The position numbers were made by a program, and so were the translations under genes. The notes below the pieces were generated by a model. It searched no databases, was not told the origin of the DNA, and worked only from the letters and a program-made list of their open reading frames with translations. Shown in pieces: positions 22,449 through 52,800 of a stretch of DNA of 64,000 nucleotides. Position 1 is the first letter of the stretch; each line of letters opens with the position of its first letter. The stretch comes from Lachnoclostridium sp. (GTDB lineage Bacteria; Bacillota; Clostridia; Lachnospirales; Lachnospiraceae): the NCBI GenBank assembly GCA_023664665.1, contig JAMPEY010000004.1, forward strand, positions 91,743 to 155,742, in the 5' to 3' direction.

Positions 22449-22545
22449 GAAGAATGCCTGCCCTTCAAGGCATTCTTCGGCGTGAGATTTAGTACTTCTT
22501 CACGAAGCAGCCTTTGCTGCGAGTGATTAGAAGTACTTCTCACGC
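22449..22545 (-). repeat. Structured intercistronic element, flgK-flgL copy
   Basis: Read as minus-strand RNA, the element starts in the flgK stop codon. Outer stem GCGUGAG/CUCACGC (22539-22545 with 22480-22486) encloses AGUACUUCU/AGAAGUACU (22529-22537 with 22491-22499), then UCAC/GUGA and GCAGC/GCUGC with an AAAG loop. A second perfect 11-base-pair hairpin, GAAGAAUGCCU, follows at 22449-22478. It has the same plan as the copies at 39941 and 52693 but different stem sequences. Confidence 0.75.
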
Positions 22546-24665
22546 TATACGCCGGTCTCTAATATCAGTCTGTCATAAACTTCCGTCAATGTCTGTATCA
22601 TCTTGGAAGCCAGATTGTAACCGTTCTGATATTTTACCAGATTGATTGCTTCCTCGTCCTCGTCCACGCCGGATATGGAAATTCTCTGATTGTCAATAGT
22701 GTTTGCAAGGTCGGAAAAATTCTGTTGGAATTTGTTGGCGCTGGATGCATTTAACGCCACATCCGACAGCATACACTGTAGGAATTCCGAAGCGGAAGCT
22801 CCCCTGAAGCTCATTTTTGTTTTGTCGGTAACCATGGTTCTGAGCGCTTTCAGCAAATCATCCTGCTCCACTCCGTCGCCGGTGCTGAACTTGTTTGCCA
22901 TCAGGTTAGCATCCTGCTCCATAGCGGAAAGAACATTGAAGTTTCTGGCTGTCAGGAGATAATAGCTGTCCTGCGCCGCGCCTACGGTGATGCTTCCCAC
23001 CATGCTTGCCGCCGTAACCTCCGTTACGCCTTCCGCCGTCAAAGCTGCCGCCGCCTGCGTCAGCGCCTCGGCATCCGTGATAGGCGTGCCTGCTTGCTGC
23101 GCCTGATCTTTTAATTGATTTGCGCGGGTTGTCAGCTTTGCCTGATAATCCTTATAAGCCAGCACCTTTTCGTTCTGTTTCTGTACAAATAAGTCATATC
23201 TTGTATCAATGGTGCCGTTTGTGCCGTCCGGAAAATCAAACTGCTCCGTACCGACGGCATCATCTCCGGTAAACAGAATAACGCCTTCCCTGTTTTGGGC
23301 GGTATAACCGCTTGTAAGGATATCGTTAAACTTCTGGGAGAAAGTTCTGATCCATTCATTCATCTGGTTCATGTAATACGGAATACCCTGATAGGAAATG
23401 CTGGCGCCGATATCCGCGGGTTTATTCTGACGGTCGTTGGTGACGCGTCTGGGATTTTTCTCGCCGTTCCCCGCCTTGGACAGGGTAAAAGTATAGGAGT
23501 GAACCGCCTCGCCGTTCTCGTCATAAGAACAGGTGTAAGACCAGGAATCATAGTAAAATTCCTGATTGCCCAGATTGATAATACCGCCCTGGTCGGAAAG
23601 ATTACATTTATTCAAATCCTGCAGATATACCCGCCCCACTGTAACGGTAACGGTGTCATGCAGAAATCCTTCGGCATCCGTAGTTTCTCCCACGCTTGTA
23701 ACCGTGCCATGGAAATTTTCGCCGTTATTACCGTCTCTCATTTGTACCAGGCCCTTTAAATTACCGCCCATTGCGGCATTATAAAGGTTAAACTTCTGAC
23801 CGTCCTCCCAATATACATCGTACAGACCGTCGATATCCGTCTGGTTCACTTTCTCATAACTGCGCCTTGCGACACATTCCAATCCCCGGTATTCATTGGT
23901 GTCAACCAAAAGCTGTCCGCCCGCAATCTTCACAAGGAAACGGTTTCCTCCGGTCTCACGATCCGGATTATTGGAATCCGTAATAGGCACTTCCTTGATA
24001 TCAACATCCACGATTTCCGAAAGTTCATCAATCAGAAGGGTTCTCCTGTCCCGCAGCTCGTTTGCCTTAATTCCGGTTAACTCGATGGTATTGATCTGTT
24101 TATTTAAAGTGGCAATCTCTCCCGCAAGGGAATTGATCTGGTCAACCTTTAATTTGATTTCCTGATTGACATCCTTCTGCATGGTCTCCAGATTGCCTGC
24201 CAGACCGTTGAAATATTCCGTCAGATCTCCGGCACACCCGATAAACTGAGCCTTGGCATTGACGCTGCTGGGATCCTTTAACAACTCCTGTATGCCTTTT
24301 ATCATCATCTGGTCAAAAATTGTCTTAAACCCGGCATTTTCACCGGTATCGTCAAAATATGTCTCAATCTGCTGCGCATAATACTGCTTCATATTGTACT
24401 CGCCAAGCCGGGTATTATTCTCCCAATACTTGCCGTCATAAAATTCATCCCTGACACGCTCGATTGCCAATGTCTCAACGCCGGCGCCCGCACAGCCGTA
24501 AGCTTCAAATACACGCAGGGCATTGTATGCCTGCTGGCTTACCTGCTGCCTGCTGTAGCCTTCCGTATGCACATTTGCAATATTATTGCTGGTGGTGTTT
24601 AAAGCGGCATTGCTGGCTAACAACCCCGTATATGCAATATTCAGTCCAAAAAATTGTGATGGCAT
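22545..24665 (-). CDS. flgK: Flagellar hook-associated protein FlgK (HAP1), second copy
   Basis: 706 residues. The N-terminus 'FFGLNIAYTGLLASNAALNTTSNNIANVHTEGYSRQQV' and the C-terminus 'EEAINLVKYQNGYNLASKMIQTLTEVYDRLI', read in parts, are the FlgK/rod-hook family ends that form the D0 coiled coil. It is the longer of two adjacent FlgK proteins and shares only the terminal regions well with the other (24679). AAGGAGG precedes the ATG, 13 bases after the other flgK. Whether both join hook to filament, or one has a changed role, cannot be told from sequence. Confidence 0.9.
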   Translation of the reverse strand: MPSQFFGLNIAYTGLLASNAALNTTSNNIANVHTEGYSRQQVSQQAYNALRVFEAYGCAGAGVETLAIERVRDEFYDGKYWENNTRLGEYNMKQYYAQQIETYFDDTGENAGFKTIFDQMMIKGIQELLKDPSSVNAKAQFIGCAGDLTEYFNGLAGNLETMQKDVNQEIKLKVDQINSLAGEIATLNKQINTIELTGIKANELRDRRTLLIDELSEIVDVDIKEVPITDSNNPDRETGGNRFLVKIAGGQLLVDTNEYRGLECVARRSYEKVNQTDIDGLYDVYWEDGQKFNLYNAAMGGNLKGLVQMRDGNNGENFHGTVTSVGETTDAEGFLHDTVTVTVGRVYLQDLNKCNLSDQGGIINLGNQEFYYDSWSYTCSYDENGEAVHSYTFTLSKAGNGEKNPRRVTNDRQNKPADIGASISYQGIPYYMNQMNEWIRTFSQKFNDILTSGYTAQNREGVILFTGDDAVGTEQFDFPDGTNGTIDTRYDLFVQKQNEKVLAYKDYQAKLTTRANQLKDQAQQAGTPITDAEALTQAAAALTAEGVTEVTAASMVGSITVGAAQDSYYLLTARNFNVLSAMEQDANLMANKFSTGDGVEQDDLLKALRTMVTDKTKMSFRGASASEFLQCMLSDVALNASSANKFQQNFSDLANTIDNQRISISGVDEDEEAINLVKYQNGYNLASKMIQTLTEVYDRLILETGV

Positions 24666-24678
24666 AGCCGCCTCCTTA

Positions 24679-26445
24679 CTATACTCCTAAAGTATTGAGA
24701 ATGTGCTCCAGCATCTCGTCAACCACATTAATGTAACGGCTGGATGCATTGTATGCGTTCTGAAATTTTATCATATTGGAAAGCTCTTCATCCGAAGAAA
24801 CCGCTACAACCTGATCCCTTGCAGCCAAAGTGGATTCCACCGTGTTCTCCTGATTCTCATAAATACTGCGGAATACCGACCCCGAATTTGCTACCTGTGC
24901 TACCAGATCAATATAATAGCCGTTAAAGGAAGTCGTCTTCCTCACATTGGGATTTAAGGTGTAGACCTCTTCCGTAAATGCCTTTTTCAAGGCTTCCACC
25001 GTCTCCTTATCCACCTTATCCTCAGAACCGTCCTTCAGTCTGAATCCCAAGTTGGAAGGGTTCTGCATCAATTCCGGATTCACGCGGAGATTGTCTATCG
25101 TGTAGAGCGTATCCTGCTGCTCCAAGTCCTCTTCCACATACACCCAAAAGTCTCCGGTATTGCCGTTCGCATCGGTTGCCGTCACCTTCCTGTAACCTTC
25201 CGTGGTATATTTGGTGAACATCTGGAGAGGGCTTCCGTCCTCCGCCCTCATATAACCGCCTACATCATCCTTGGCATAATGCGCATTCTTCAGTATGGCT
25301 GCAGTGGTTCCGTTTTCAAATCTCACATTGGTCAGAGTACCCTCTTCCACTCCGGCGGCAGTTGCCAGAATCTCGTTGATCTTGCCGGATACATTGTGCA
25401 CCAGCTGGTCAAACTCTGCCTGAATATTCATGATAACCGATTGGGAAATCTGATCGTAATTGTTCCCGGCGATATCGCTGTAATTCGCCCGGTGGTCGCC
25501 CCTCGCCAAAAGCATGGCTTTCAGTCCGCCCACATCAGTACCCAAATCGGAGGAAATTTCAATATTTAAATTAAAGACTTCCGCACCGTCAATGTTATAT
25601 TTTCTGGTTCCGTCCGGCAATACCCTGTAGGTTGCGTTCTGGGGCCAGAACGGTGTATAAAATCCTGTGGTTGCATCCGTATCCATGCTGATTTCATAAC
25701 ACATACCGCCTTTTACGAAATCAACGCCCTCTATCTGAACCGCTACATTTCCGAGAGCATCTTCCTGCCAGGTCATATTGGTCAGCTCCGCCAATTCATC
25801 CAGCATTCTGTTTCTGGTATCCCGAAGGTCGTTGGGATGCTCTATCCCGCCTACTTCAATGGAACGAATCCTGTCATTTAACTCTAAAATAGCATGCCCA
25901 TATTCATTAATCTTATCAACCTGCTGCTTGATCTGCAGATTCAGATTGTCCTGATAAGAAGAAAGTCCGTCATAGATAGCCGCCGCCCTTTCCACAAACT
26001 CAGAAGCCCTCTGCACGAAAAGCCCCTGTGTCACAGAGCTGCAGGGATCTTTGCTGAGTTCCTGCACCGCAGTCCACAAATCGCTCAAGGGATTCTGGAA
26101 CGCCTCGCCGTTTAATTCTCCCAGCAGGCTTTCCACTTCCTCCAGCACTTCCGTGGATACCTGATAAAACATACTGCGCCCCGATTCTTTGCGGTATGCT
26201 TTATCCAAAAAATAATCCCTTACCTGTTTTACATTGGAATAGGTGACGCCCAATCCCGTCTGTTTATTTGATACGATTCTGGGATCCGTCGCGATGGTAA
26301 CATAGCTCTTGTCGGACTGTTGAACCTGCTGTCTGGTATAACCCACAGTGTCCACATTAGAAAGATTATGCGCTGTGGTATTCAGCGCATTTTGACTTGT
26401 CTGTAATCCGGATACTCCTATATATAAATTTGACATCAATGACAT
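24679..26445 (-). CDS. flgK: Flagellar hook-associated protein FlgK (HAP1), first copy
   Basis: 588 residues with 'LYIGVSGLQTSQNALNTTAHNLSNVDTVGYTRQQV' at the N-terminus (read in parts) and 'LSNMIKFQNAYNASSRYINVVDEMLEHILNTLGV' at the C-terminus, both FlgK hallmarks. ATG 26445 has AGAGGTG at 6 bases, better than an upstream in-frame GTG at 26454. It follows flgN by 40 bases, which is the usual flgM-flgN-flgK order, so this is probably the ancestral copy. Confidence 0.9.
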   Translation of the reverse strand: MSLMSNLYIGVSGLQTSQNALNTTAHNLSNVDTVGYTRQQVQQSDKSYVTIATDPRIVSNKQTGLGVTYSNVKQVRDYFLDKAYRKESGRSMFYQVSTEVLEEVESLLGELNGEAFQNPLSDLWTAVQELSKDPCSSVTQGLFVQRASEFVERAAAIYDGLSSYQDNLNLQIKQQVDKINEYGHAILELNDRIRSIEVGGIEHPNDLRDTRNRMLDELAELTNMTWQEDALGNVAVQIEGVDFVKGGMCYEISMDTDATTGFYTPFWPQNATYRVLPDGTRKYNIDGAEVFNLNIEISSDLGTDVGGLKAMLLARGDHRANYSDIAGNNYDQISQSVIMNIQAEFDQLVHNVSGKINEILATAAGVEEGTLTNVRFENGTTAAILKNAHYAKDDVGGYMRAEDGSPLQMFTKYTTEGYRKVTATDANGNTGDFWVYVEEDLEQQDTLYTIDNLRVNPELMQNPSNLGFRLKDGSEDKVDKETVEALKKAFTEEVYTLNPNVRKTTSFNGYYIDLVAQVANSGSVFRSIYENQENTVESTLAARDQVVAVSSDEELSNMIKFQNAYNASSRYINVVDEMLEHILNTLGV

Positions 26446-26485
26446 AATACTCACCTCTATATCTCACAAGGATGCGGCTTACAGG

Positions 26486-27004
26486 CTATTGCTTGGCGTC
26501 AAATCCTTTGCTGGTGACACCCATGGTATTTCCTGTATTATATGCGCCTTTGTTATAATTTGCTGTCTCGGGCGCCGCTTTCATTGCCTGTAAAAGGTTC
26601 ATTTCAAATTCTACCATCTCCAGCGCATTATTCAACAGCTCCCTGTTCTGCTCATTTACCCTCTGCAGACCCCTCACCGACGCCTGTAACTTATCATGTA
26701 TCTCCGTCAGTGTCCTTTGTTCCTCGGGTCTTGCGGAAAGCATGGCAATCAAATCAGTCAATTTTAATGTTTTAACATCCTTGTTCAACACATTGGCAAT
26801 ATCCGCAGTAACCTCCACCCGTTTTTTCTCCAGATTGGCGATTCTGCTTACCATATCCTGCTCGTCATCCGTGATTTTTTGTAATGCTTCCAAATTGCCG
26901 CTTATAATGATCGGCGTTTTCTTTTGAGATAGTCCAAGCAGCCCCTCATATTCACTGTTCTCTTTCTCCAGTACCTCTATCAGGTTCTCCATTAAACTAG
27001 CCAC
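26486..27004 (-). CDS. flgN: Flagellar export chaperone FlgN
   Basis: 172 residues, helical, with 'LIEVLEKENSEYEGLLGLSQKKTPIII' and 'LLNNALEMVEFEMNLL', fitting FlgN, the chaperone of FlgK and FlgL. A GTG start at 27004 has GAGGTAG 5 bases upstream, overlapping the end of flgM; ATG 26992 is the alternative. The position between flgM and flgK supports the name. Confidence 0.85.
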   Translation of the reverse strand: MASLMENLIEVLEKENSEYEGLLGLSQKKTPIIISGNLEALQKITDDEQDMVSRIANLEKKRVEVTADIANVLNKDVKTLKLTDLIAMLSARPEEQRTLTEIHDKLQASVRGLQRVNEQNRELLNNALEMVEFEMNLLQAMKAAPETANYNKGAYNTGNTMGVTSKGFDAKQ

Positions 27005-27009
27005 TTGAA

Positions 27010-27288
27010 CTACCTCATTTCTTCGTACTTCTTTAACAGTTTGTCAGCAAAAGTGTTGGTATCTACAGAATAACTTCCGCTCTGGATTTTTGCTTTAATG
27101 GAAGCTGTCAGCTCTTCCCTTACATCGGGAGCGCTTGCAACTGCCGCCTTAGCCGTCTGATAATCTTTGCCCTGACTGCTGATCTGCAGCTGGTCGTTCG
27201 TACGGGTTCCGGCTTTGGCTTTCTTACTCTGGTTCACCTTTTGTGACTGATAAATCTGCTGTACTTGTGTGTAGGCCTCTATACGCAT
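27010..27288 (-). CDS. flgM: Anti-sigma-28 factor FlgM
   Basis: 92 residues. N-terminus 'MRIEAYTQVQQIYQSQKV' and C-terminal 'REELTASIKAKIQSGSYSVDTNTFADKLLKKY' match FlgM, where the C-terminal helices bind sigma-28. It is first in its operon, behind a SigD promoter, so it forms a negative loop on the sigma factor that transcribes it. AAAGGAGG lies 7 bases before the ATG. Confidence 0.93.
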   Translation of the reverse strand: MRIEAYTQVQQIYQSQKVNQSKKAKAGTRTNDQLQISSQGKDYQTAKAAVASAPDVREELTASIKAKIQSGSYSVDTNTFADKLLKKYEEMR

Positions 27289-27333
27289 ATGGATTCCTCC
27301 TTTCCATTATTACATCTGACTTACTTGTAATAA

Positions 27334-27360
27334 TTATCGGCGGTTTCCAAAAATACTTTA
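27334..27360 (-). promoter_or_regulatory. SigD (sigma-28) promoter of flgM operon
   Basis: TAAA-N15-GCCGATAA on the minus strand, an exact match to the sigma-28 consensus, about 45 bases upstream of flgM. Confidence 0.92.
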
Positions 27361-27379
27361 GGGCAGATTGCAAAAAAGA

Positions 27380-29140
27380 CTATTTCAATCTGTCCGCCAT
27401 CTCATAAAAATGACTATAAATCCCTTTCTTTTCCAACAATTGCCGGTGGCTGCCTTCCTCCACGATTCCCTCTTCCGTCAACACCAGAATCCTGTCCGAA
27501 TTTTTAATGCTGGACAATCTGTGGGCAATGGTCAGGGTGGTCCGTCCCTCTGACAGCTTCGCAAGAGAGCTTGCCACCGCGAATTCGCTTTCATTGTCAA
27601 GGGCAGAGGTAGCCTCGTCCAAAATAATAATGGGCGGATTTTTTAAAAATACTCTTGCGATACTGATTCTCTGCTTCTGCCCGCCGGACAGTTTAACGCC
27701 GCGCTCTCCCACATAAGTATGGTATCCATCCTTTAATTCCATAATGAAATCATGGGCGCCCGCCCTTTTTGCCGCCTCCTCCACCTCCGCTTCGGAAGCC
27801 TCCGGCTTTCCGTAAGCAATATTTTCATAGACGGTTCCCGAGAATAAATAAACATCCTGCTGTACAATGCCGATATTACCGCGCAGGCTTTTTAAGGTAA
27901 ATTCCTTGATATTTCTGCCATCCAGCAAAATCCTTCCCTGTGTGACATCATAAAACCGGGGAATCAGATTGCACAGAGTGGTCTTCCCTCCGCCGGAAGG
28001 TCCCACAATAGCCACCTTTTCCCCTGCCCCAATCTGCAGATTCAGTCCTTCAAATACTCTGTTATGGTCATCCTGATATTCAAAACCCACATTTTCAAAA
28101 ACAATGTTTCCCTTAGGATTTTTCAACTCCACCGCTCCCGGCTCGTCAAAAATTTCTATGTCCGCATCCAGAATCTCCAGAAAACGCTCAATGCCCGTCA
28201 TGCCCCGCTGAAACTGTTCGGCAAACTCAATAATGCGGCGTATCGTGGCGATCAGCGTGGTCACATACAGCATATACGCCACTAAGTCCCCCGGCGCAAT
28301 CAGTCCTTCTATCATAAAAAAGCCGCCTGCCACTACCACCGTCAGATACATCAGCCCGTCAAAAAGCTTCACTGTGGTCTGAAATTGCGCCATGTACCGG
28401 TAGGATTCCTTCTTGATGTCAAAAAACGCCCGATTGTCCCGCTCAAATTTCTCCGTCTCAATCTCCTCATTGGCAAACGCCTTGACTACCTTATGTCCTA
28501 AAAGACTGTCCTCAATCCGGGCATTCAATTCCCCAATCTGATACCGCTGCTTGCGGAATGCGGCTCTCATGCGGAAATTTAAAGCCATACATACCACGGT
28601 CATCAGGGGAACACATAAAAAAATCAACAGAGTCAGCCACAGATTCACGCCCGCCAGAATGAAAAAGGATATGAGCGTCTTGATTCCCGCAATAAAAAAC
28701 TCCTCCGGGCAATGGTGGGCAAACTCCGTCACATCAAACAAATCATTGGAAATACGCCCCATAATCTGTCCCACTTTTGTATTGTTATAATAAGTATTGG
28801 ACAGCCTCTGCAGATGTTCATAAGCATCACGCCGCATATCCGTCTCAATCTTCGCTCCCATCACATGTCCCATATCCGCCATGTAATAACCCGCAATACA
28901 ATCCACAATCCGAAGTATCAGATACAAAATCCCCAGACCGCCCACGGTCTTCATGGACAAGGCAGCCAAATCCCTTAACCCTTCATTGGTAATATAGCGC
29001 ATAATTAACGGCAGCACCAGCTCGCAGACCGTAGTCAGCGCCGCACAGAACAAATCCATGCACATTGTTTTTTTGTATTTCATTAAGTACGGTACAAACC
29101 TATGCAATAATTCTTTGGAAGCATACTGCTTTGATTCCAT
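27380..29140 (-). CDS. ABC transporter, fused permease and ATPase (exporter type)
   Basis: 586 residues. The N-terminal 320 residues carry about six membrane helices of the type 1 exporter fold. The ATPase domain has Walker A 'GPSGGGKTT', signature 'LSGGQKQR', Walker B 'IIILDEATSALD' and switch 'IAHRLS'. I chose ATG 29140 after GAGAGG. A half-size exporter of this kind works as a homodimer, or with a partner that is not present here. It is not flagellar as far as I can see. Substrate unknown. Confidence 0.88.
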   Translation of the reverse strand: MESKQYASKELLHRFVPYLMKYKKTMCMDLFCAALTTVCELVLPLIMRYITNEGLRDLAALSMKTVGGLGILYLILRIVDCIAGYYMADMGHVMGAKIETDMRRDAYEHLQRLSNTYYNNTKVGQIMGRISNDLFDVTEFAHHCPEEFFIAGIKTLISFFILAGVNLWLTLLIFLCVPLMTVVCMALNFRMRAAFRKQRYQIGELNARIEDSLLGHKVVKAFANEEIETEKFERDNRAFFDIKKESYRYMAQFQTTVKLFDGLMYLTVVVAGGFFMIEGLIAPGDLVAYMLYVTTLIATIRRIIEFAEQFQRGMTGIERFLEILDADIEIFDEPGAVELKNPKGNIVFENVGFEYQDDHNRVFEGLNLQIGAGEKVAIVGPSGGGKTTLCNLIPRFYDVTQGRILLDGRNIKEFTLKSLRGNIGIVQQDVYLFSGTVYENIAYGKPEASEAEVEEAAKRAGAHDFIMELKDGYHTYVGERGVKLSGGQKQRISIARVFLKNPPIIILDEATSALDNESEFAVASSLAKLSEGRTTLTIAHRLSSIKNSDRILVLTEEGIVEEGSHRQLLEKKGIYSHFYEMADRLK

Positions 29141-29217
29141 GATTTTTTCCTCTCTCAAAATATGAAAACAGCTTTCGATTTATTTTAAATTTATTATTTT
29201 TTGCATTTTCCTTTTTT

Positions 29218-29246
29218 ACTTTAACACCGCCATTTACCTCTGCCAA
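29218..29246 (-). promoter_or_regulatory. Candidate promoter of ABC exporter gene
   Basis: TTGGCA, 17 bases and TAAAGT on the minus strand, about 80 bases before the start. The -10 box is only four of six. Confidence 0.4.
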
Positions 29247-29298
29247 TGCTGTAAAATAGAAACTGGAAATTTCTTAATTGACACAAAGGAGGAGGCTC

Positions 29299-29703: not shown

Positions 29704-29719
29704 CGGATAGCTCCTTTTT
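29684..29719. terminator. Bidirectional terminator between XRE gene and rplQ operon
   Basis: AAAAGGAGC/GCTCCTTTT, nine base pairs, with T-runs on both strands. It overlaps the stop of the XRE gene on the plus strand and lies 26 bases beyond the rplQ stop on the minus strand. Confidence 0.82.
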
Positions 29720-30502: not shown

Positions 30503-30507
30503 GCTCG

Positions 30508-39315: not shown

Positions 39316-39366
39316 GCCCGTACCTCCTGTTTTTAATTATAGAACAATTGTCAGTTCCATAGGGAC

Positions 39367-39478
39367 GAAACTTAGATTTTATTAGGCAATGTACTTTATT
39401 GCCTTAGAAAATCTTTTCCGACATGACTTAGCATTTCTTAGGCTTTGTTTTCTAAAGCCTTAGAAATCCTTCATGTCG
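39367..39478 (-). repeat. Two structured intercistronic elements, rpsH-rplF spacer
   Basis: Two stem-loops in line. The first (RNA order, 39478 to 39419) starts 2 bases after the rpsH stop: CGACAUGA/UCAUGUCG outer stem, bulge, AUUUCU/AGAAAU, AA/UA, GGCUUU/AAAGCC. The second (39418 to 39367): short GAAA/UUUC, AGAUUUU/AAAAUCU, CUAA/UAAU, GGCAAU/AUUGCC with loop AAAGUAC. Loop and bulges match those of the copies at 39941 and 52693. Confidence 0.75.
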
Positions 39479-39480
39479 TG

Positions 39481-39940: not shown

Positions 39941-40050
39941 CACAGAACCTAATCGGCTCTGTGAAGAACGCCGGTTTTGCGTTCTTCGGTGTGAAGTTTT
40001 AGAATTTCTTATGTCTGCGTACTTTGCAGACTTAGAAATTCTCTTCACAC
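39941..40050 (-). repeat. Structured intercistronic element, rpsZ-rpsH copy
   Basis: As RNA, 2 bases after the rpsZ stop: outer stem GUGUGAAG/CUUCACAC (40043-40050 with 39989-39996), GAAUUUCU/AGAAAUUC, AA/AUA bulge, GUCUGC/GCAGAC, loop AAAGUAC. A second hairpin GAAGAACGC/GCGUUCUUC is at 39963-39987, and a third, CACAGAGCC/GGUUCUGUG with one G-U pair, at 39941-39963. The main stem-loop is almost identical to the copy at 52739-52800. Confidence 0.82.
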
Positions 40051-40052
40051 TC

Positions 40053-45697: not shown

Positions 45698-45735
45698 CTG
45701 CTTGGTCCTCCTTTCGCTTTGCGCTATACGCAATT

Positions 45736-46419
45736 TTATGCCTCCACCTTAACGGTTTCTTTGATGGTTACTAAAGATTTCTTGGGTCCGGGTACGGAAC
45801 CTTTGATAAGAAGCAGATTCTTCTCGGCATCCACTCTCACCACTTCCAGATTCTGAACCGTTACCTTTACGCATCCCATGTGACCGGGCATTCCTTTACC
45901 CTTAAACACGCGGCTGGGTGAAGAGCACGCACCGTTGGAACCCTGATGACGGTGGAACTTAGAGCCGTGCTTCATGGGTCCTCTGTGCTGTCCCAATCTC
46001 TTAATAGCGCCCTGGAAACCTTTACCTTTGGAAATTGCGGTAGCATCTATCTTGTCGCCTTCCGCAAAGATATCCGCTTTAATTTCTGCTCCCAAAGTAT
46101 ATTCATCCGCATTTTCAAACTTAAACTCCCTCACATACCGCTTGGAGCTTACGCCGGCTTTCTTGAAATGTCCCTGCTCCGCCTTGGTTGCGCCATGACT
46201 GTGAACGATTTCCTTTTTGCCGCTTGCGTCCTTATTGATGATTTTGTCCTTCTTGTCTACAAAGCCGACCTGCACTGCGCTGTAGCCGTCATTCTCCACA
46301 GTCTTTAACTGGGTGACCACGCAGGGTCCTGCCTGAAGAACCGTTACGGGAATGAGTGCGCCGTCTTCATTGAAGATCTGAGTCATTCCGATTTTTGTTG
46401 CCAAAATTGCTTTCTTCAT
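45736..46419 (-). CDS. rplC: 50S ribosomal protein L3
   Basis: 227 residues: '[20 protein letters not shown]' and '[20 protein letters not shown]' near the peptidyl transferase centre. AGGAGG lies just before the ATG. Confidence 0.98.
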
Positions 46420-46532
46420 TTTTACCTCCTGTTGTCTACATAGAGGACCGGGACAACGCCCGTTCTTGTCTAGTAGAGGTTTTGTTTTTGTTTGTGCTGC
46501 TTATGATTCATTAAAATGAAGCAAACCGTTTA

Positions 46533-46850
46533 TCACTTATTCTTCATTTTGATGTCAATATATACGCCTGCAGGCATTTCCAATCTCTGCAGCGCATCCA
46601 CCGTCTTCTGGGTCGGTGCAATGATATCGATCAGTCTCTTGTGGGTTCTCTGTTCAAACTGTTCTCTGGAATCCTTGTACTTATGAACAGCTCTCAAAAT
46701 TGTGACCACTTCCTTTTTGGTGGGAAGGGGAACGGGACCGCTCACCTGTGAACCGTTCTTCTTGACTGTTTCGATAATCTTCCGGGCAGATGCATCCACA
46801 AGCTGATGCTCATATGCCTTCAGGGTGATTCTCATTACTTGATTTGCCAT
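46533..46850 (-). CDS. rpsJ: 30S ribosomal protein S10
   Basis: 105 residues: '[20 protein letters not shown]' and '[20 protein letters not shown]'. First gene of the S10 operon. The start is set at 46850, where the family starts, with AAAGGAGG 11 bases upstream; an in-frame ATG 15 bases later is an alternative. Confidence 0.97.
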
Positions 46851-46881
46851 AAAAATAGCCGCCTCCTTTTCGCACTCTCGT

Positions 46882-46991
46882 ACGACAAGTGGTGACTGTA
46901 CACTCTCCCGTGTGTGTCCTAAACTTTTTACAATACTCACACACCGTTTCTACCGATAAGTAGACCTTGTTTTGGTACAGTGACTTGTCGT
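46882..46991 (-). promoter_or_regulatory. Structured leader of the S10 operon
   Basis: In the leader RNA, ACGACAAGU (46983-46991) pairs with ACUUGUCGU (46882-46890) and ACUGUAC (46975-46981) with GUACAGU (46895-46901), leaving a 1/4 internal loop. Inside, CACACAC-GUGUGUG (46938-46944 with 46910-46916) forms another stem. There is no T-run, so it is not a terminator. It ends about 15 bases before the rpsJ ribosome binding site and could be an r-protein target. Confidence 0.65.
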
Positions 46992-47090
46992 CAGTTTCCT
47001 AACTTGACATTCGCTCCACGGAAAACCTGCTTCCGATTGCCCGAAAGCAGCAACCTCACGCTTCACAGCTATCATGCCACAGCAAGTAGT

Positions 47091-47119
47091 AGTATACAGG
47101 ATAAGGAAAAATTTTGCAA
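47091..47119 (-). promoter_or_regulatory. Sigma-A promoter of the S10-spc-alpha operon
   Basis: TTGCAA, exactly 17 bases, TATACT on the minus strand. The untranslated leader to rpsJ would be about 235 bases. Confidence 0.88.
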
Positions 47120-47124
47120 GCACA

Positions 47125-47150
47125 AAATTGTATTTTTTTTAGTACAATTT
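47125..47150 (-). terminator. Weak hairpin at the end of putP
   Basis: AAATTGTA/TACAATTT overlapping the putP stop, then a few T residues on the minus strand. The stem is all A-T but one pair, so termination may be leaky. Confidence 0.4.
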
Positions 47151-48684
47151 ATTTCATGGCCTTCACGGTCTCAAATTCCTTTGTAATTTCCTTGGAAGGC
47201 GCCGGCGTCACCAGTGATACTGCCAAAATTACCAGACTTCCCACAATAAAGGCAGGAAGCAGCTCATAGATATCCCATAAGCCACCCAGAGGACGAACCA
47301 GATACTTCCATACAAATACCATCACGCCCCCGGAAATCATGCCGGCAAGCGCTCCCGGGAAATTCGTGCGCTTCCAGAACAAGGAAAACAGCATGATGGG
47401 ACCGAATGCCCCGCCAAAGCCGGCCCATGCAAAGGACACAATATTAAACACGGAACTGTCCGGATTCCATGCAAGAAACACACCTATCACAGCTATCAGC
47501 ATAATGGTAGCGCGGGCTGCCAGCATAGACATCTTTTCACTCATCTTAATCTTTAAAAAGTCCTGCAGCAGATTCTGGGACACGCTGGATGCCGCCGTAA
47601 GCAGCTGGGAATCCGCCGTTGACATGGTACATGCCAGAATACCCGCAAGCACTACGCCTGCAACAACCGCTGCCAGAAAACCATGCTTCGAGAGCAGATT
47701 GGCAAACTGTATGATAACCGTTTCCGAATCAGCGCTGTTATTAAAGGAAGGAATCGCGCCTGCCGCAGAAGCAGCACAGCCGATCAGTCCCAGAAAAATG
47801 GCAACCGTCATGGAAATCACCACCCAGACGGATGCAATCCTGCGGGCAAGCTTGATTTCCTTTTCATCCCTCACAGCCATAAAACGCAGCAGAATATGAG
47901 GCATTCCAAAATAGCCAAGCCCCCAGGCCACTGTGGATAAAATGGTAAGCATTGTATATGGTTTTGCCATGCCTGCCTTAACATCATAGGTCTGATTCAT
48001 GCTCAAGTACCCAGGAATCGCGCGGGCATTCTCCATAACAGCCCCCCAGCCTCCTGCCGTGTTAATGCCAAAAAATACAATGACAATCAGCGCAATCGTC
48101 ATAACAATGCTCTGAATCAAATCTGTGGTGGATACCGCCAGAAATCCTCCCAGTGCGGTATACCCCACGATAATCAGCGCGCCAACCAGCATCGCCATAT
48201 GATAATCCACCCCAAATAAAGTAGAAAACAGAGTTCCCACTGCCTTAAATCCGGACGCCGTATAGGGAATGAAAAAAATCAGGATAAAGATAGCGGCAAT
48301 ACAGGCAAGTATATTCTTATTATCCCTGTACCTCTTGGAAAAGAAATCGGGAATGGTAATCGCGCCGCAGGAAGCGGAATATCTGCGCAGCTTCTTTGCC
48401 ACAAGCAGCCAGTTCAGATAGGTTCCCACGCCGAGTCCTATCACCGTCCATCCCACATCCGCAATACCCGATATGTATGCAAGTCCCGGAAGACCCATGA
48501 GCAGATAGCTGCTCATGTCTGAAGCCTCGGCGCTCATTGCCGCCACCAAAGGACCCAACTTTCTGCCGCCCAGATAAAACCCTTCTGCGGATGAATCGCT
48601 TTTTCTGCTGAAATAAACACCCACAGCTATCATAACTGCCAGATAAACTACAATTGCCAAAATAATACCAGCCTGTGCACTCAT
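47149..48684 (-). CDS. putP: Sodium/proline symporter PutP
   Basis: 511 residues with about 13 membrane helices of the SSS family. 'SDSSAEGFYLGGRKLGPLVAAMSAEASDMSSYLLMGLPG' (read in parts) is the PutP signature in helix 2, and 'ACTMSTADSQLLTAASSVSQNL' is the sodium-site helix 9 region. It imports proline with Na+. It lies upstream of the ribosomal operon on the same strand but has its own promoter. Confidence 0.93.
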   Translation of the reverse strand: MSAQAGIILAIVVYLAVMIAVGVYFSRKSDSSAEGFYLGGRKLGPLVAAMSAEASDMSSYLLMGLPGLAYISGIADVGWTVIGLGVGTYLNWLLVAKKLRRYSASCGAITIPDFFSKRYRDNKNILACIAAIFILIFFIPYTASGFKAVGTLFSTLFGVDYHMAMLVGALIIVGYTALGGFLAVSTTDLIQSIVMTIALIVIVFFGINTAGGWGAVMENARAIPGYLSMNQTYDVKAGMAKPYTMLTILSTVAWGLGYFGMPHILLRFMAVRDEKEIKLARRIASVWVVISMTVAIFLGLIGCAASAAGAIPSFNNSADSETVIIQFANLLSKHGFLAAVVAGVVLAGILACTMSTADSQLLTAASSVSQNLLQDFLKIKMSEKMSMLAARATIMLIAVIGVFLAWNPDSSVFNIVSFAWAGFGGAFGPIMLFSLFWKRTNFPGALAGMISGGVMVFVWKYLVRPLGGLWDIYELLPAFIVGSLVILAVSLVTPAPSKEITKEFETVKAMK

Positions 48685-48745
48685 AAGTTCTTTTCTCCTT
48701 TTTATGTACCGTTATTCACTATTTATTTATGCGCATTTACTCATT

Positions 48746-48774
48746 AGTCTACTAAGAATTTCCTGATAAGTCAA
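48746..48774 (-). promoter_or_regulatory. Sigma-A promoter of putP
   Basis: TTGACT, 17 bases, TAGACT on the minus strand, about 60 bases before the ATG. Confidence 0.65.
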
Positions 48775-48854
48775 GTCCTATGCACTCAATTCGTCCAATA
48801 ATGACATAATTATACACTAAATAAGGCAAATGTAAACGCATTTTTGCCCCGGCG

Positions 48855-48883
48855 TTGCATAAAATACAAAAATCCTGTATAGT
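48855..48883 (+). promoter_or_regulatory. Sigma-A promoter of methyltransferase gene
   Basis: TTGCAT, 17 bases, TATAGT. Start of RNA would be about 14 bases before the ATG, just enough for the GGGAGG site. Confidence 0.75.
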
Positions 48884-48903
48884 GAATGAGGGAGGATATA
48901 CCT

Positions 48904-49812
48904 ATGTGGATTGCAGACAATTGGAAAGACTATGAAGTGATAGATACCGGCAATGGGGAAAAATTAGAGCGCTGGGGGAAATATCTCCTTGTGCGTCCCG
49001 ACCCTCAGGTCATCTGGGGCACAGATTACGCCAATCCCGGCTGGAAACAGAAAAACGGACATTACCATAGGAGCGCCAAGGGTGGCGGAGAATGGGAATT
49101 CTTTGAACTTCCTGACGAATGGAGCATATCCTATGACCTTGCGGACGCCTCAACACCGGAATGCCGCTCCCTGACTTTTCACCTGAAGCCCTTCAGTTTT
49201 AAACACACAGGTCTGTTTCCCGAACAGGCGGTTAATTGGGATTGGTTTTCCCATATTATCAGAGAAGCCCACCGCCCCGCGGACCAACCCGTAAAAGTGC
49301 TCAATCTGTTTGCCTATACCGGCGGCGCTACCATTGCCGCAGCAGCGGCAGGCGCTGCCGTGACCCATGTGGACGCTTCCAAAGGCATGGTGGGATGGGC
49401 AAAGGAAAATGCCGCCTCCTGCCTGAAAGATGCCCCCATCCGTTTTTTGGTGGATGACTGCGTTAAATTTGTGGAGCGTGAAATCCGCCGGGGCAACAAA
49501 TATGACGGGATTATCATGGACCCGCCCTCCTACGGAAGGGGACCCAAGGGCGAGACATGGAAGTTGGAGGCCAATATATGGTCTTTCATTGAATTGACGG
49601 CTCATCTGCTTTCCAAAGATGCCCTGTTCTTTTTGCTCAATTCCTATACCACGGGACTACAGCCGGCAGTTCTCTCCTATATGCTGAACTCTGCCCTTGC
49701 CAAACCGCTGGGCGGTCATGTGGAAGCCGGTGAAATCGGCCTGCCTGTCACGGAAAGCGGTCTGGCGCTTCCCTGCGGCGCTTGCGGCAGATGGATGCGG
49801 GATGCTTCTTAA
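48904..49812 (+). CDS. Class I SAM-dependent methyltransferase, RlmI/RlmK-like
   Basis: 302 residues. 'VLNLFAYTGGATIAAAAAGA' is the SAM loop, 'VTHVDASKGMVGWAKENA' motif II, and 'DGIIMDPPSYGRGPKGE' the DPP(S/F/Y) catalytic motif of base methyltransferases related to RlmI. The N-terminal PUA domain of RlmI is absent; a short beta-rich segment replaces it. It probably methylates rRNA; the position is unknown. ATG 48904 has GGGAGG at 8 bases. Confidence 0.8.
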   Translation: MWIADNWKDYEVIDTGNGEKLERWGKYLLVRPDPQVIWGTDYANPGWKQKNGHYHRSAKGGGEWEFFELPDEWSISYDLADASTPECRSLTFHLKPFSFKHTGLFPEQAVNWDWFSHIIREAHRPADQPVKVLNLFAYTGGATIAAAAAGAAVTHVDASKGMVGWAKENAASCLKDAPIRFLVDDCVKFVEREIRRGNKYDGIIMDPPSYGRGPKGETWKLEANIWSFIELTAHLLSKDALFFLLNSYTTGLQPAVLSYMLNSALAKPLGGHVEAGEIGLPVTESGLALPCGACGRWMRDAS

Positions 49813-49829
49813 CGCTATCTTTATACCCA

Positions 49830-49857
49830 TTGCCATGCAAGTAAGATACAATAGAAT
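49830..49857 (+). promoter_or_regulatory. Candidate promoter of the two-component operon
   Basis: TTGCCA, 16 bases, TAGAAT, each five of six to consensus, about 40 bases before the kinase ATG. Confidence 0.55.
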
Positions 49858-49895
49858 CATACAGTTGTTGTGTTTTTGTTTACAAAGGAGATGTC

Positions 49896-50813
49896 ATGCA
49901 TCGAAAATTACAGAATATGCCTGTTTGGAAGCAGTACCTCTACAGCCTCCTGCTTTCCAGCATTTGCTTGGGCGCCGCCATGGCTGTTGCTTTTGTTTAC
50001 CATGCCCTGCTGCCGGAAAGTCACTTTGCGATACTGCTGTTTTTCCTATTGGCAGTTCTTATCACCTCGCATTGTATCACATCTTTTTCCGTGCTTTTAT
50101 TAAAAGATATTTCAAACCAACACCGGAAGCTTCTCTCAGAATCCGAGATTGAGAAAATGCGTGCAAATCTGCTGCGTTCTATCTCCCACGACTTAAGAAC
50201 TCCCTTAGCCGTCATCATCGGTAACAGCTCTCTCTATTTAGACAGTACAAACCAATTAAGCGAAACAGAAAAAGCAGAGCTTTTGACCAATATTCATGAG
50301 GAAGCAGACTGGCTTTTAAATGTAGTGGAAAATCTTCTTGTCATCACCCGTATCCAAAAAGACAGTTTTTCCATTGCCACCCGCCCGGAAGCCTTAGAGG
50401 AAGTGATTGCCGAAGCCCTGCAAAAATTTAAAAAGCACTATCCCGATGTCGCCGTCAAAGTGCAGATTCCCGAATCTTATATTTCGCTTCCCATGGATGC
50501 CATTTTGATTGAACAGGTCATGATCAATCTGCTGTCCAACGCTTCCCTCCATTCCGGAAGCCCGACGCCCATTGAAGTAACCGTGCGGGACATGCCCCAC
50601 GCCGTATCTGTCTCCATAAAGGATTACGGTAACGGCATTCCTCAAGAAAAGCTGGACAGCCTCTTTGACGGCACATCCTATCCCGTATCCGGCAAAGGCA
50701 CCGGCGTCGGGCTTTCCATCTGCCAGACCATCATCGCCGCGCACCACGGCACAATTTTAGGACGGAATCACAAGACAGGCGCCGAATTTGTCTTTACGCT
50801 GCCCAAAAGCTGA
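49896..50813 (+). CDS. Membrane sensor histidine kinase, KdpD C-terminal-like
   Basis: 305 residues. Two membrane helices (about 12-35 and 43-69) with almost no outside loop. His98 in 'SISHDLRTPLAVIIG' is the phosphoacceptor; 'NLLSNASLHS' is the N box, 'DYGNGIP' G1 and 'GKGTGVGLSI' G2. It resembles the C-terminal half of KdpD, but the large N-terminal KdpD/Usp domains are missing and no kdp genes are nearby, so the signal may be within the membrane. AAAGGAG lies before the ATG. Confidence 0.88.
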   Translation: MHRKLQNMPVWKQYLYSLLLSSICLGAAMAVAFVYHALLPESHFAILLFFLLAVLITSHCITSFSVLLLKDISNQHRKLLSESEIEKMRANLLRSISHDLRTPLAVIIGNSSLYLDSTNQLSETEKAELLTNIHEEADWLLNVVENLLVITRIQKDSFSIATRPEALEEVIAEALQKFKKHYPDVAVKVQIPESYISLPMDAILIEQVMINLLSNASLHSGSPTPIEVTVRDMPHAVSVSIKDYGNGIPQEKLDSLFDGTSYPVSGKGTGVGLSICQTIIAAHHGTILGRNHKTGAEFVFTLPKS

Positions 50814-50852
50814 AAGGAACACTCCGACCATACCAAAGAAAAGAGGGATAAC

Positions 50853-51548
50853 ATGAACCCGAAGACAAAGATACTGTTAATTGAAGATGACAAAAATTTG
50901 AACAACTTTATTACCACCGTTCTGGAGTCCAATGACTACAAAGTCATGACCGCCTTTTCCGGCAGGGAAGGCATCAGCCTCACCACATCCTTTTGTCCCA
51001 ATATCATTCTTTTAGATTTAGGACTTCCCGATATGGACGGGCTTGTTGTGCTGCAACAGGTGCGCAGCTGGAGCAGTCTCCCCATTATCATCCTGTCCGC
51101 CCATATGAGTGAGGAGGAAAAAGTCGCCGCTCTGGATATGGGAGCGGACGACTACATCACAAAACCCTTCGGAACCGCCGAGCTGATGGCGCGCATCCGC
51201 ACCTCCCTCCGCCACAGCCATAAAGAATCGCCAAACCACATATACAAAGCCCTTGATCTGGAAATCCAGTTTGACAAGCGCAAAGTCCTGCTTGCCGGAA
51301 AGGATATCCACCTGACCCAGATTGAGTACCAGCTTCTGACCCTTCTTGCGGAAAATTCCGGCAAAGTGCTGACTTACGGCTATATCATGAATACCATTTG
51401 GGGACCCTACTCCGATGACGGCAATCAGATCCTGCGGGTAAACATGGCAAATATCCGGCGCAAAATCGAAGCCCAGCCTGCCCAGCCCCAATATGTGTTT
51501 ACGGAAATCGGCGTCGGTTACCGGATGCTGGAAAACGAAAATCAATAA
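50853..51548 (+). CDS. OmpR/KdpE-type response regulator
   Basis: 231 residues. Receiver domain with Asp12, Asp13, phosphoacceptor Asp55 (LLDLGLPDMDG) and Lys near 106 (YITKPFG); C-terminal winged helix 'LTQIEYQLLTLLAENSGKVLTYGYIMNTIWG', read in parts. It is the partner of the kinase 40 bases upstream. Its targets are unknown. It converges on the anti-sigma gene with only 6 bases between stops and no terminator. Confidence 0.9.
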   Translation: MNPKTKILLIEDDKNLNNFITTVLESNDYKVMTAFSGREGISLTTSFCPNIILLDLGLPDMDGLVVLQQVRSWSSLPIIILSAHMSEEEKVAALDMGADDYITKPFGTAELMARIRTSLRHSHKESPNHIYKALDLEIQFDKRKVLLAGKDIHLTQIEYQLLTLLAENSGKVLTYGYIMNTIWGPYSDDGNQILRVNMANIRRKIEAQPAQPQYVFTEIGVGYRMLENENQ

Positions 51549-51554
51549 TATAGT

Positions 51555-52655
51555 TTACGGATGAATGGATGCAAACATCTCCCATATTTCCTCCGCGCTT
51601 CCTCTGCCGTTAAATTCCACCAGAATGCCGCTGTCATAAAGCACCGCAAAATTTCCCCTCGGCGTGCTTGTGTCTCCCGCATCCGGTACGGATTTCATGC
51701 GCGCTTCCACCATTTCAAGGGAAAAATCCGCCTCTGTAAACACAGGATTGTAGAAAACCTCAAAATATTCCATAGGCACCGTATCGGCATAAGGGATTTC
51801 ATACAAATGTACATCATAAGTTTCCGGTCTTTTGGGGTCAACAATCCTTTTTTGGAAAGAATCATTCACATCTGCCGGCATGCTGGCAACGGCATAAAAT
51901 TCCGTAATATTCAGCATGATATCATCCATGCCTTTGCACCAGCACAGACTCATATCCAGATAACTGTTATCCGGCGAAGCCCCCCTTGCCGACTCAAGCC
52001 GATAGCCTGCCGGAATCGTTTCCGGCACATATCCGCCGATTCTCTCCATCTCCTTTGCTTCCCGCAAAGTAATCTCAGGCCGGATATCTCCCAGACATAC
52101 CTCCACTTGGTCGGAATCCGACGGGCTAAGATTACTGTTCTGGGCAGTCGAAAATTCCTCCTTCCCGCCTAATGCCCCATCCTTCATAGTTACGCCTTCC
52201 TGTAATTTGCTTTCCGCATCCTGCATATCCGTTTGCATAGGCACACCCGCTTCGGATTTCATCCCCTCGCCGGGTGCTTCTTTTTCCAAACCCAAATCAT
52301 TCCTATACGCCTCTTCCTGTGGCGCCATGTCCGCGCTTGCCCCATCACTGCCGCCTGCCATAGCGCCATTTTCCGCTGACTGTTGCTTCAAAAAAGCATA
52401 TCCGCTGCCTGAGGTATCACTTTTATTGCTTGTAACACTGTAGACTCCAAAAACGCAGACCCCCATCGCCACAATGGCAAAACAGGCCGCCAGCTGCTTT
52501 CCGTATCTCCAAAAAGGAATCACTCTTTTAACTCCCTCGCTCCGCTCCAGCAATTCCCCATCCACGCCCGACAAGGCTTCCATCAGGCGCACTGCTTTCT
52601 GCCTGTCCGTTTCTTTTTCCATATATTTATCCTCCAAATGAATCAAGTTGCTCAT
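51555..52655 (-). CDS. Probable membrane anti-sigma factor with large exported domain
   Basis: 366 residues. About 50 cytosolic residues, one membrane helix ('AACFAIVAMGVCVFGVYSV'), then a Ser/Gly/Glu-rich linker and an outside domain of about 170 residues: 'YVPETIPAGYRLESARGASP' and 'ILVEFNGRGSAEEIWEMFAS', which recalls DUF4367-type sensor domains. It follows the ECF sigma gene, the usual place for its anti-sigma. No zinc HxxxCxxC motif is present, so binding is by another route. ATG 52655 has GGAGG at 5 bases. Confidence 0.65.
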   Translation of the reverse strand: MSNLIHLEDKYMEKETDRQKAVRLMEALSGVDGELLERSEGVKRVIPFWRYGKQLAACFAIVAMGVCVFGVYSVTSNKSDTSGSGYAFLKQQSAENGAMAGGSDGASADMAPQEEAYRNDLGLEKEAPGEGMKSEAGVPMQTDMQDAESKLQEGVTMKDGALGGKEEFSTAQNSNLSPSDSDQVEVCLGDIRPEITLREAKEMERIGGYVPETIPAGYRLESARGASPDNSYLDMSLCWCKGMDDIMLNITEFYAVASMPADVNDSFQKRIVDPKRPETYDVHLYEIPYADTVPMEYFEVFYNPVFTEADFSLEMVEARMKSVPDAGDTSTPRGNFAVLYDSGILVEFNGRGSAEEIWEMFASIHP

Positions 52656-52692
52656 AATATCCTCCATGCCGCTTTAGCGGCTCAAAATAGCA

Positions 52693-52800
52693 AAGCCAAT
52701 AAATTGGCTTATGAAAAACGCTGTTTTTGCGTTTTTCGGTGTGAAGATTTAGAATTTCTTATGTCTGCGTACTTTGCAGACTTAGAAATTCTCTTCACAC
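52693..52800 (-). repeat. Structured intercistronic element, sigma/anti-sigma copy
   Basis: In RNA the element begins at the last codon of the sigma gene: GUGUGAAG/CUUCACAC (52793-52800 with 52739-52746), GAAUUUCU/AGAAAUUC, GUCUGC/GCAGAC, loop AAAGUAC. Then GAAAAACGC/GCGUUUUUC (52713-52737) and AAGCCAAU/AUUGGCUU (52693-52710). The first stem-loop is nearly the same as at 39989-40050; the other two keep pairing with different bases. Confidence 0.82.

Follow-up and report, generated by a model that had tools for sequence, protein, structure and literature searches.

An apparently new family of ERIC- and BOX-like palindromes at stop codons in Lachnospiraceae

Hairpins after stop codons in the window

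Why should layered hairpins of one design lie directly after the stop codons of unrelated genes? The question is raised by a 64,000-nt stretch of a Lachnoclostridium sp. contig (JAMPEY010000004.1, positions 91,743 to 155,742; hereafter the window), in which a preliminary description had claimed such stem-loops after flgK, rpsN (rpsZ), rpsH and a sigma-factor gene. These structures are real: they lie on the minus strand and all window copies fold strongly, with the following parts.

22478..22547, minus strand: hairpin 1 of the flgK copy, type B, outer stem GCGTGAGA, directly at the flgK stop
22449..22478, minus strand: hairpin 2 of the flgK-flgL copy, GAAGAATGCC...GGCATTCTTC
39987..40052, minus strand: hairpin 1 of the rpsN-rpsH copy, type A, outer stem GTGTGAAG, loop AAAGTAC
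39963..39987, minus strand: hairpin 2 of the rpsN-rpsH copy
39941..39963, minus strand: hairpin 3 of the rpsN-rpsH copy, CACAGAGCCGATTAGGTTCTGTG
39417..39480, minus strand: hairpin 1 of the first copy after rpsH (S8), outer stem CGACATGA/TCATGTCG
about 39361..39424, minus strand: hairpin 1 of the second copy after rpsH, 3' arm TTTCGTCC kept, 5' outer arm lost
52737..52802, minus strand: hairpin 1 at the end of the sigma-factor gene, type A
52713..52737, minus strand: hairpin 2 of the sigma copy, GAAAAACGC...GCGTTTTTC
52693..52710, minus strand: hairpin 3 of the sigma copy, AAGCCAATTTATTGGCTT, flagged as terminator-like

The MFE z-scores of the four window loci were -7.6, -7.7, -9.8 and -9.0 (the rpsH locus holding two copies), and 0 of 200 shuffles at each locus was as stable as the real sequence. 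The plus strands folded nearly equally well (z -7.2 to -9.5), as is usual for palindromes. Pfam matches at the window copies were FlgK, a flagellin-N protein, S8, L6 and a sigma-70-type factor; copies sit inside a ribosomal-protein gene cluster, between S14 (whose protein ends in ...KKASW*), S8 and L6. The gene after the sigma factor had no match in Pfam, and its label as an anti-sigma factor therefore derives from position only.

The outer stem had been described as starting within 2 bases of the stop codon or overlapping it. This is so at flgK, where the G of the TAG codon (22545-22547) is the first base of the stem, at rpsN, whose stop codon lies 2 nt 5' of the stem, and at the sigma gene, whose TGA (52795-52797) falls within the 5' arm GTGTGAAG, but not in the second rpsH copy, where the 5' outer arm is lost; the remaining TTTCGTCC finds its partner GGACGAAA in relatives, and G030, for one, has GGACGAAA/TTTCGTCC intact. 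Similarly, the inner pair UUCUAA/UAAGAA is exact in three of the five copies, but the 3' side reads GAAGAA at flgK and UAAUAA in the second rpsH copy, and the third hairpins noted at 39941 and 52693 are present but belong to a variable tail.

Copies in the genome and in relatives

A genome search at E≤0.01 gave 84 hits, or 77 distinct copies after removal of 7 antisense duplicates, and these form one family dispersed through the genome, as had been suspected from its presence at unrelated genes (one genome analysis used 95 of 112 hits, listed by hand). Flanks were fetched for all but C4:1225, leaving 76 copies, of which 73 were called sense to the upstream gene; among the three non-sense calls, C33:107326 and C7:55092 are weak. 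Between co-directional genes, 66 copies are sense and 1 is antisense. The claimed placement after stop codons also extends beyond the window, with the stop codon at -12 to +17 nt from the stem start in 54/73 sense copies and outside this range in 19/73; the shortness of rpsN led to a wrong call for its copy (position -22 in the list, the actual stop TAA being at -5). Near a gene end lay 50 of 69 copies, against a mean of 18 under uniform placement (maximum 30 in 2000). The predicted ORF terminates inside the hairpin in 20/73 copies, as would be expected if insertions at gene ends were simply tolerated. A preference for operons, inside which the preliminary description had placed the elements, is not supported: co-directional and convergent gene ends stood at 63:12 with a copy and 155:16 without one, which is no clear difference (p=0.13). 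Three copies on three contigs (C54:49123, C53:41453 and C8:51791) are identical over ~90 nt, one tandem array with a unit of ~92 bp was found in the external stretch L210, and one in-place swap was observed.

Further copies were found in other genomes labelled as Lachnospiraceae, and the external records include two cultured carriers, Parablautia intestinalis D8-82 and Lachnospiraceae bacterium GAM79. The family is centred on one genus, which the labels of its relatives assign to Lachnospiraceae, with at least two further genera carrying copies, and its distribution is patchy, with copies in 25 of 37 same-genus genomes and 0 to 63 copies per genome. Near-stop placement, called by the longest sense ORF only, was found for 7/7 copies in G182 (another genus), 6/6 in G113 (same genus) and 11/17 in G220 (another genus), one G220 hit (C25:47-115) not being in the count. 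Nine model hits in G219, G102, G065, G147, G242 and G239 were rejected as the same phenomenon; eight lie away from any stop, and the ninth (L323) has its stop at +15 on a 264-nt run, next to which there is a longer antisense run.

At orthologous sites some species have a copy and others have none, the protein end being the same. For flgK, 37/41 genomes matched and 30 loci were fetched, of which L269 was dropped (wrong frame); among the 29 same-genus loci read, only the window genome and G001 (stop TAA) have a copy at the flgK stop. For the sigma gene, 30 loci were fetched, L290 was dropped (wrong frame) and the weaker L302-L306 were left out; no copy was seen in the other 23 of the 24 loci read. 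For rpsH, 26/41 genomes matched and 26/26 were read, and between rpsN and rpsH many relatives show a gap of ~40 nt at the site. Protein ends agree with relatives at the gene ends compared (rpsN, rpsH, flgK and sigma), and truncation of genes by insertion is not supported there. The 5' arm of the sigma copy, GTGTGA, is shared with the empty site in G028, the best-scoring relative; a host-derived 5' outer arm was rejected as a general rule because the arm is absent from those rpsN empty sites that were read.

Architecture and compensatory change

In the typical element, an outer stem of 8 bp, free in sequence, encloses an inner stem that is more conserved and has a bulge on its 3' side; a short apical stem-loop caps it, and hairpin 2 and often a variable tail follow. 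Many versions of hairpin 2 are GAAGAAC...GTTCTTC without a U tract, and some end in GCGTTTTTC. A Shine-Dalgarno-like GGAGG occurs in the tail of some copies. The base preceding the outer stem is mostly A, with TA in only part of the copies. In 28 own-genome A1 copies, selected by no core pattern, the inner-part letters TTCTA, A.AA and TA are invariant and a 3'-side bulge of 2-5 nt is retained; the A-A mismatch is absent from type B own copies. In external copies, the constancy of the A-A mismatch, the AWG bulge and the inner stem is no evidence, because the search pattern itself fixed them.

Pairing was assessed on an external set of 80/83 stretches (L244-L246, with one match each, left out), in which 81 matches yielded 68 distinct copies with enough flank; A2 omitted L210, L229 and L240 from the 68 and L160 from 13 added candidates. 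The outer stem is 93% Watson-Crick in the 68 copies against 49% with shuffled arms, while comprising 34 different octamers. Covariation, one of the checks proposed beforehand, was found: double-changed cells number 341, against 99 in shuffles and against 17 single-changed cells, and the covariation score is 0.459, against 0.139 for shuffled and ≤0.070 for slid controls. Compensatory change is also seen between orthologues, L170 and L225 (flanks 95% and 90%) differing by three double compensations with zero broken pairs. One orthologous pair has a G-C to C-G swap with no surviving intermediate, and in L108/L165 a one-sided G-U change has persisted. Because the genome holds 77 distinct copies and covariation exceeds both controls, chance is excluded. 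Two outcomes named beforehand as refuting the claim, an absence of more copies and an absence of covariation, thus did not occur.

G-U pairs occupy 16 cells and A-C mismatches 21, against ~115 and ~113 expected under independent columns. A-C is thus no rarer than G-U, and pairing therefore seems to be kept on both DNA strands. Since a constraint on the sense RNA only should tolerate G-U better, this balance seems to point to the DNA level and against a purely RNA role.

Known repeats and competing explanations

In Rfam scans, the window matched only the S10-Clostridia leader at gathering scores, and 10 element loci at E≤1 gave one snoRNA hit that fell short of its gathering score; there was thus no relevant match in Rfam, in agreement with the earlier remark that no named family fits. 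Among the titles and abstract openings listed from the literature, a limited coverage and no proof of absence, none described this repeat, and viral contigs had 0 matches to one exact pattern of one subtype.

ERIC (IRU/RU-1) of enterobacteria is an imperfect palindrome of 127 bp. It is described as located between genes and within operons and as transcribed, with an orientation-dependent effect on mRNA and a ribosome-induced conformational change (PMC2229807; PMC3049150), and with a 7-bp TIR, a TSD and TA termini (PMC2229807, Table 1). The present element is likewise a dispersed palindrome, here seen in sense orientation; its host phylum is another one, and its outer stem is sequence-free and tied to the stop codon. 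BOX of Streptococcus pneumoniae is likewise a modular interspersed repeat, with 36/58 CDS overlaps at the extreme 3' end, supplying the stop codon, and is over-represented between convergent genes (PMC3049150), whereas here neither convergent nor co-directional ends are clearly enriched; sense bias at the stop codon is not among the BOX properties given in the available part of PMC3049150. RUP and Correia/NEMIS MITEs, also palindromic repeats (~107 bp), carry TIRs, TA termini and TSDs, and NEMIS RNA has been proposed as a target of RNase III (PMC2229807). Here, in contrast, the terminal stem varies freely: constant TIRs are disfavoured by the 34 octamers found among 68 copies (Y1 transposases being the only ones searched), no clear TSD was seen at the filled/empty pairs read by eye, and the right end is variable.

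REP/BIME and REPIN are short extragenic palindromes proposed to be transcribed RNA elements, REPs measuring 20-40 bp (PMC3733652), whereas the hairpin here is ~60 nt plus a tail. In G000 (97.8% complete), no RAYT-type Y1 transposase flanked by repeats was found; PF01797 gave one full-length hit, a protein that we read as IS200-like, and one sub-threshold fragment, and none of the listed R1/R2 hits is closer than 1.5 kb to the full-length one. A constant unpaired GTAG or CGTC tag was absent at the copy ends read by eye. A RAYT/REP origin was rejected for want of a RAYT-like gene next to a copy, and the search, which covered the Y1 family, identified no mobilising enzyme.

We regard the elements as interspersed palindromes of the ERIC/BOX kind that form a new family with an unusual tie to stop codons, and for which an ERIC-like role in mRNA processing is plausible. 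Our main reading, to which we give a probability of roughly 0.4, is that stop-flush sense palindromes are transcribed, set mRNA fate by hairpin closure and are kept by selection. We infer that each copy would be transcribed and form the start of the 3' UTR. A ribosome standing on the stop codon would mask the 5' outer arm, and the whole hairpin would close once translation stops. When closed, it would decide what becomes of the mRNA pieces on either side, by forming an RNase-resistant 3' end or a site for an endonuclease, as proposed for ERIC; selection would retain sense copies flush with the stop codon, and copying would proceed via recombination between copies and a mobilising step. In favour of this reading are the sense orientation, the near-stop placement here and in other genomes, the covariation, the invariant letters of the A1 copies, the compensations in L170/L225 and the unchanged protein ends at empty sites. 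Against it are the G-U to A-C balance, the lack of enrichment between co-directional genes, the patchy distribution, the 19/73 copies outside the -12 to +17 range and the 20/73 with an ORF ending in the hairpin.

The palindromes could instead be parasitic, copies of a mobile but non-autonomous hairpin that is recognised as (single-stranded) DNA, brings the host no benefit, is tolerated at gene ends and reaches stop codons because insertion chemistry or gene conversion favours certain sequences. We take this to be a serious possibility, though short of probable: it agrees with the Watson-Crick pairing on both strands, the patchy copy number, the three near-90-nt identities, the L210 array and the match of GTGTGA to empty-site bases, and BOX, which also gives genes their 3'-end stop codons, has been judged parasitic (PMC3049150). 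However, mere tolerance hardly accounts for the 66:1 sense bias, given that both strands fold into almost equally good hairpins, and no RAYT-like gene stands beside a copy, Y1 being the only transposase family searched. If, on the other hand, template-switch correction of quasi-palindromes rewrote one arm from the other, pairing would be kept by mutation and covariation would not be evidence of selected structure. The excess of double over single changes and the G-C to C-G swap without an intermediate are as expected from this process, but it should have erased the bulge retained in the 28 own-genome copies, the one-sided G-U change in L108/L165 persisted, and orientation and placement are left unexplained; we consider it unlikely. 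That the hairpins are ordinary intrinsic terminators or attenuators is very improbable: some hairpin 2 versions do end in GCGTTTTTC and hairpin 3 of the sigma copy is terminator-like, but the scan of three window regions flagged neither hairpin 1 nor hairpin 2, many hairpin 2 versions have no U tract, and copies lie inside the ribosomal-protein cluster.

A further reading, which we hold to be doubtful, is a mobile, stop-anchored, translation-gated RNA switch, whose free 8-bp outer stem would act as a ribosome-footprint sensor, open while ribosomes terminate at the overlapping stop and otherwise closed, and whose inner stem, bulge and loop would be read by one protein or RNase. Gene translation would then be coupled to mRNA cleavage or stabilisation at dozens of genes at once, and the element would spread as a ready-made 3'-end cassette. 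More generally, a mobile repeat and an RNA element are not exclusive, and both may hold. If the copies act as RNA, a spreading regulatory part sits at exact gene ends, including those of ribosomal-protein genes, and protein ratios within operons could be reset; if they act as DNA, this is a mobile palindrome whose orientation and stop-codon position need a new explanation. In either case, the filled and empty orthologous sites are natural pairs for a direct test.

Folding, anatomy and covariation of the hairpin

The stem-loops reported behind stop codons in the preliminary description fold on the minus strand as it claimed, with MFE z-scores of -7.6 to -9.8 at the four window loci and equal stability in 0 of 200 shuffles; folding of the plus strand at these loci is nearly as strong, so that thermodynamics alone cannot separate RNA from DNA. 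The gene names given there held for FlgK, S8, L6 and a sigma-70-type factor in a Pfam search, which also returned a flagellin-N protein at the flgL position and no match for the gene after the sigma factor. The S14 protein encoded ahead of the rpsN-rpsH copy ends in KKASW*. Other features of the window are:

14101-14925, minus strand: flagellin gene
15171-15995, minus strand: neighboring flagellin gene, sharing a 300-nt block (90% identical) with the former
46985-47074, minus strand: S10-Clostridia ribosomal protein leader (family already in Rfam)

Read 5' to 3' along the coding strand of the upstream gene, the first hairpin of the element (hairpin 1) begins with an 8-bp outer stem. Copies from other named genomes (external copies) continue with the inner stem AGATTTTC/GAAAATCT, an A·A mismatch inside CTAAG/CTAAG, an apical stem of ~6 bp, a loop of 7 nt (usually AAAGTAC or AAAGGAC) and a bulge on the 3' side ahead of the outer 3' arm; of these features, the search pattern preset the inner stem, the mismatch, the bulge (AWG) and one of the apical pairs. 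Among copies of G000, the genome containing the window, inner and apical parts vary by subtype (type B is without the A·A mismatch), the bulge measures 2-5 nt, and TTCTA, A.AA and TA are invariant (28 copies). Hairpin 2 begins one base past hairpin 1, and a tail often follows; it has a third hairpin, in some copies a Shine-Dalgarno-like ATGGAGGAT and in some GGAAGTGTGAA. Sequences resembling GGAAGTGTGAA form the left end of some G000 copies and the right tail end of others (e.g. L036 and L004), and might perhaps mark a target duplication or recombination site. In several G000 copies (L015, L020, L024, L025) a further hairpin, of the GAGGGTGTGTAAACACCCCTCTTT type, is nested within the apical loop.

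Among 68 distinct external copies, which carry 34 different outer octamers, 508 of 544 outer pairs (93%) are Watson-Crick and 6 are G·U. When the 5' arm was matched with the 3' arm of another copy, pairing was 49% (at most 55% in 200 shuffles); since pair 9 is formed in only 12/68, the stem stops sharply at 8. Covariation was scored on an alignment of hairpin 1, in which 95.2% of cells are paired, compared with 78.3% in shuffles. Two-sided changes affect 341 cells (99.3 in shuffles) and one-sided changes 17. The score of 0.459 exceeds that of the shuffled (0.139) and slid (at most 0.070) controls. Because shuffles keep relatedness, we also relied on the slid controls and on one orthologous pair, L170/L225, whose flanks are 95% and 90% identical; it shows three double compensations, two of them in hairpin 2 and the other in hairpin 1, and no broken pair.

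Copy number and placement at gene ends

A first covariance model, built from 28 copies of G000 (a 3.01-Mb draft), gave 112 raw matches in that genome, 1 to 63 matches per genome in 25 of 37 same-genus genomes, and matches in 0/24 genomes belonging to other families within the order. A second model, restricted to hairpin 1 and built on 77 sequences, yielded 84 matches in G000, or 77 distinct copies after removal of 7 antisense duplicates; when a strict cut was applied, it matched 11 of 246 genomes from the order, including members of two other genera, g37 (G220, 18 matches) and g35 (G182, 7 matches). The search proposed earlier thus found further copies, and the original observation proved real and stronger than claimed. 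An exact-core scan of named genomes returned 83 stretches, of which 80 were listed: 65 of these bear titles naming Lachnospiraceae or a genus or species that we place there (including Acetatifactor, Parablautia, GAM79 and [Clostridium] symbiosum), and 15 give only Bacillota, Clostridia, bacterium or Bacillus sp. The same scan found none in viral contigs. Model-matching hairpins in more distant genomes (L325, L326, L340, L341, L342) lie away from stop codons; among these, the versions in G147 and G242 are ~115 nt long with a longer apical part.

By codon-usage comparison, the upstream gene is in sense for 73 of the 76 G000 copies with flanks, two of the three exceptions being weak calls. The placement after stop codons described earlier was borne out, with a stop codon at -12 to +17 from the outer stem start in 54/73 copies (at -6 to +5 in 41/73). 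In 20 copies a predicted ORF terminates within the hairpin, e.g. at the TGA of GTGTGA, the TAA of GTGTGTAA or the TAA of TTCTAA. A second gene-calling script differed slightly (52 rather than 54 of 73 near a gene end) and counted 66 sense copies and 1 antisense between co-directional genes; 50/69 copies were near a gene end, where uniform placement gave 18 on average and never more than 30. The proposed tie to operons as such is weakened, as co-directional gene ends show no enrichment in copies (63:12 with a copy vs 155:16 elsewhere, p=0.13). The stop-codon rule was followed by 11/17 copies in G220, 7/7 in G182, 6/6 in G113 and the single match in G254, and failed for 8 of 9 matches in G219, G102, G065, G147, G242 and G239. 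In these genomes the sole criterion was that the longest sense ORF ends close to the hairpin, and an antisense run was as long or longer in several copies, so these counts say nothing on orientation.

Turnover at orthologous sites

The rpsH sites of 26 same-genus genomes were scored by eye. The family occupies the rpsH 3' gap in 9, with differing outer and apical stems, some outer stems being damaged (e.g. in G001); the others have one remnant, another hairpin family (five), other repeats (two) or nothing similar (nine). That second family, of the AATCAAGCACGAGCGAAGCG...TTTGATT type, directly follows the rpsH stop (L139, L137, L149, L155, L156). The rpsN 3' gap is filled in 5/26 (G000, G006, G017, G028, G031), and G220, of another genus, has a copy (L307) at what looks like the equivalent S14 gene end. 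The flgK gap is filled in 2/29 loci (G000 with TAG, G001 with TAA) and the sigma gene gap in 1/24, G000 only. The empty sigma site of the best-scoring relative, G028, reads GTAGTGTGAGG, and the 5' arm of the sigma copy therefore coincides with older sequence. At these four genes the proteins have kept their ends, as far as can be seen: the S8 C-terminal Trp is at the same place in 26/26 genomes, FlgK ends in TGV across 29 loci (TGI in one) and the sigma protein ends at the same residue. Elsewhere, L065 and L214 carry different hairpin 1 types at one spot between flanks 96-97% identical, and L210 has tandem copies of a ~92-bp unit (hairpins 1 and 2) where its orthologue L229 has one. From these filled, empty and swapped sites, the element is gained, lost and exchanged at fixed places.

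A possible reader of the hairpin: RNA or DNA

The family is of a known kind, that of small interspersed palindromic repeats; what is unusual is an outer stem of constant length and free sequence that is tied to stop codons. In agreement with the preliminary description, which knew of no fitting named family, scanning the window and element loci against Rfam release 15 gave no relevant match, and no description was found in the literature searched, as far as its accessible portions go. REP repeats, in the available part of their description, bear GTAG or CGTC tags, with RAYT enzymes for GTAG (PMC3733652); neither these tags (copies read by eye) nor a RAYT (beside copies in G000) were found here.

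If a helix were under selection in the sense RNA only, G·U should be accepted more readily than A·C. After two column pairs with poor pairing were set aside, we counted 16 G·U and 21 A·C cells, both far fewer than the 115 and 113 expected under column independence; as G·U is no commoner, pairing seems, from these counts, to be kept as DNA, through selection, recent copying or template-switch correction. Covariation of purely mutational origin would fit such a correction, and we consider it unlikely. Parasitic DNA palindromes are a possible reading to be taken seriously; pneumococcal BOX elements give genes stop codons and are yet judged parasitic, in the portion of PMC3049150 available. The bias in orientation, together with the bulge and the letters that never vary among the G000 copies, speaks for a reader that recognizes the hairpin one way round. 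That the hairpins, placed as they are at gene ends, are terminators is very improbable. The function we infer for the family is a role in RNA, held tentatively at a probability of about 0.4. Its nearest precedent is ERIC, in which, per the accessible part of PMC2229807, a ribosome-induced change exposes an RNase E site in an orientation-dependent manner.

For the RNA role, we propose that every ribosome terminating at the stop codon, where the 5' arm starts, would open the hairpin, given the general extent of a ribosome footprint, and that the hairpin would close when no ribosome is there. The outer stem may thus be a translation sensor, which would account for the freedom of its sequence.
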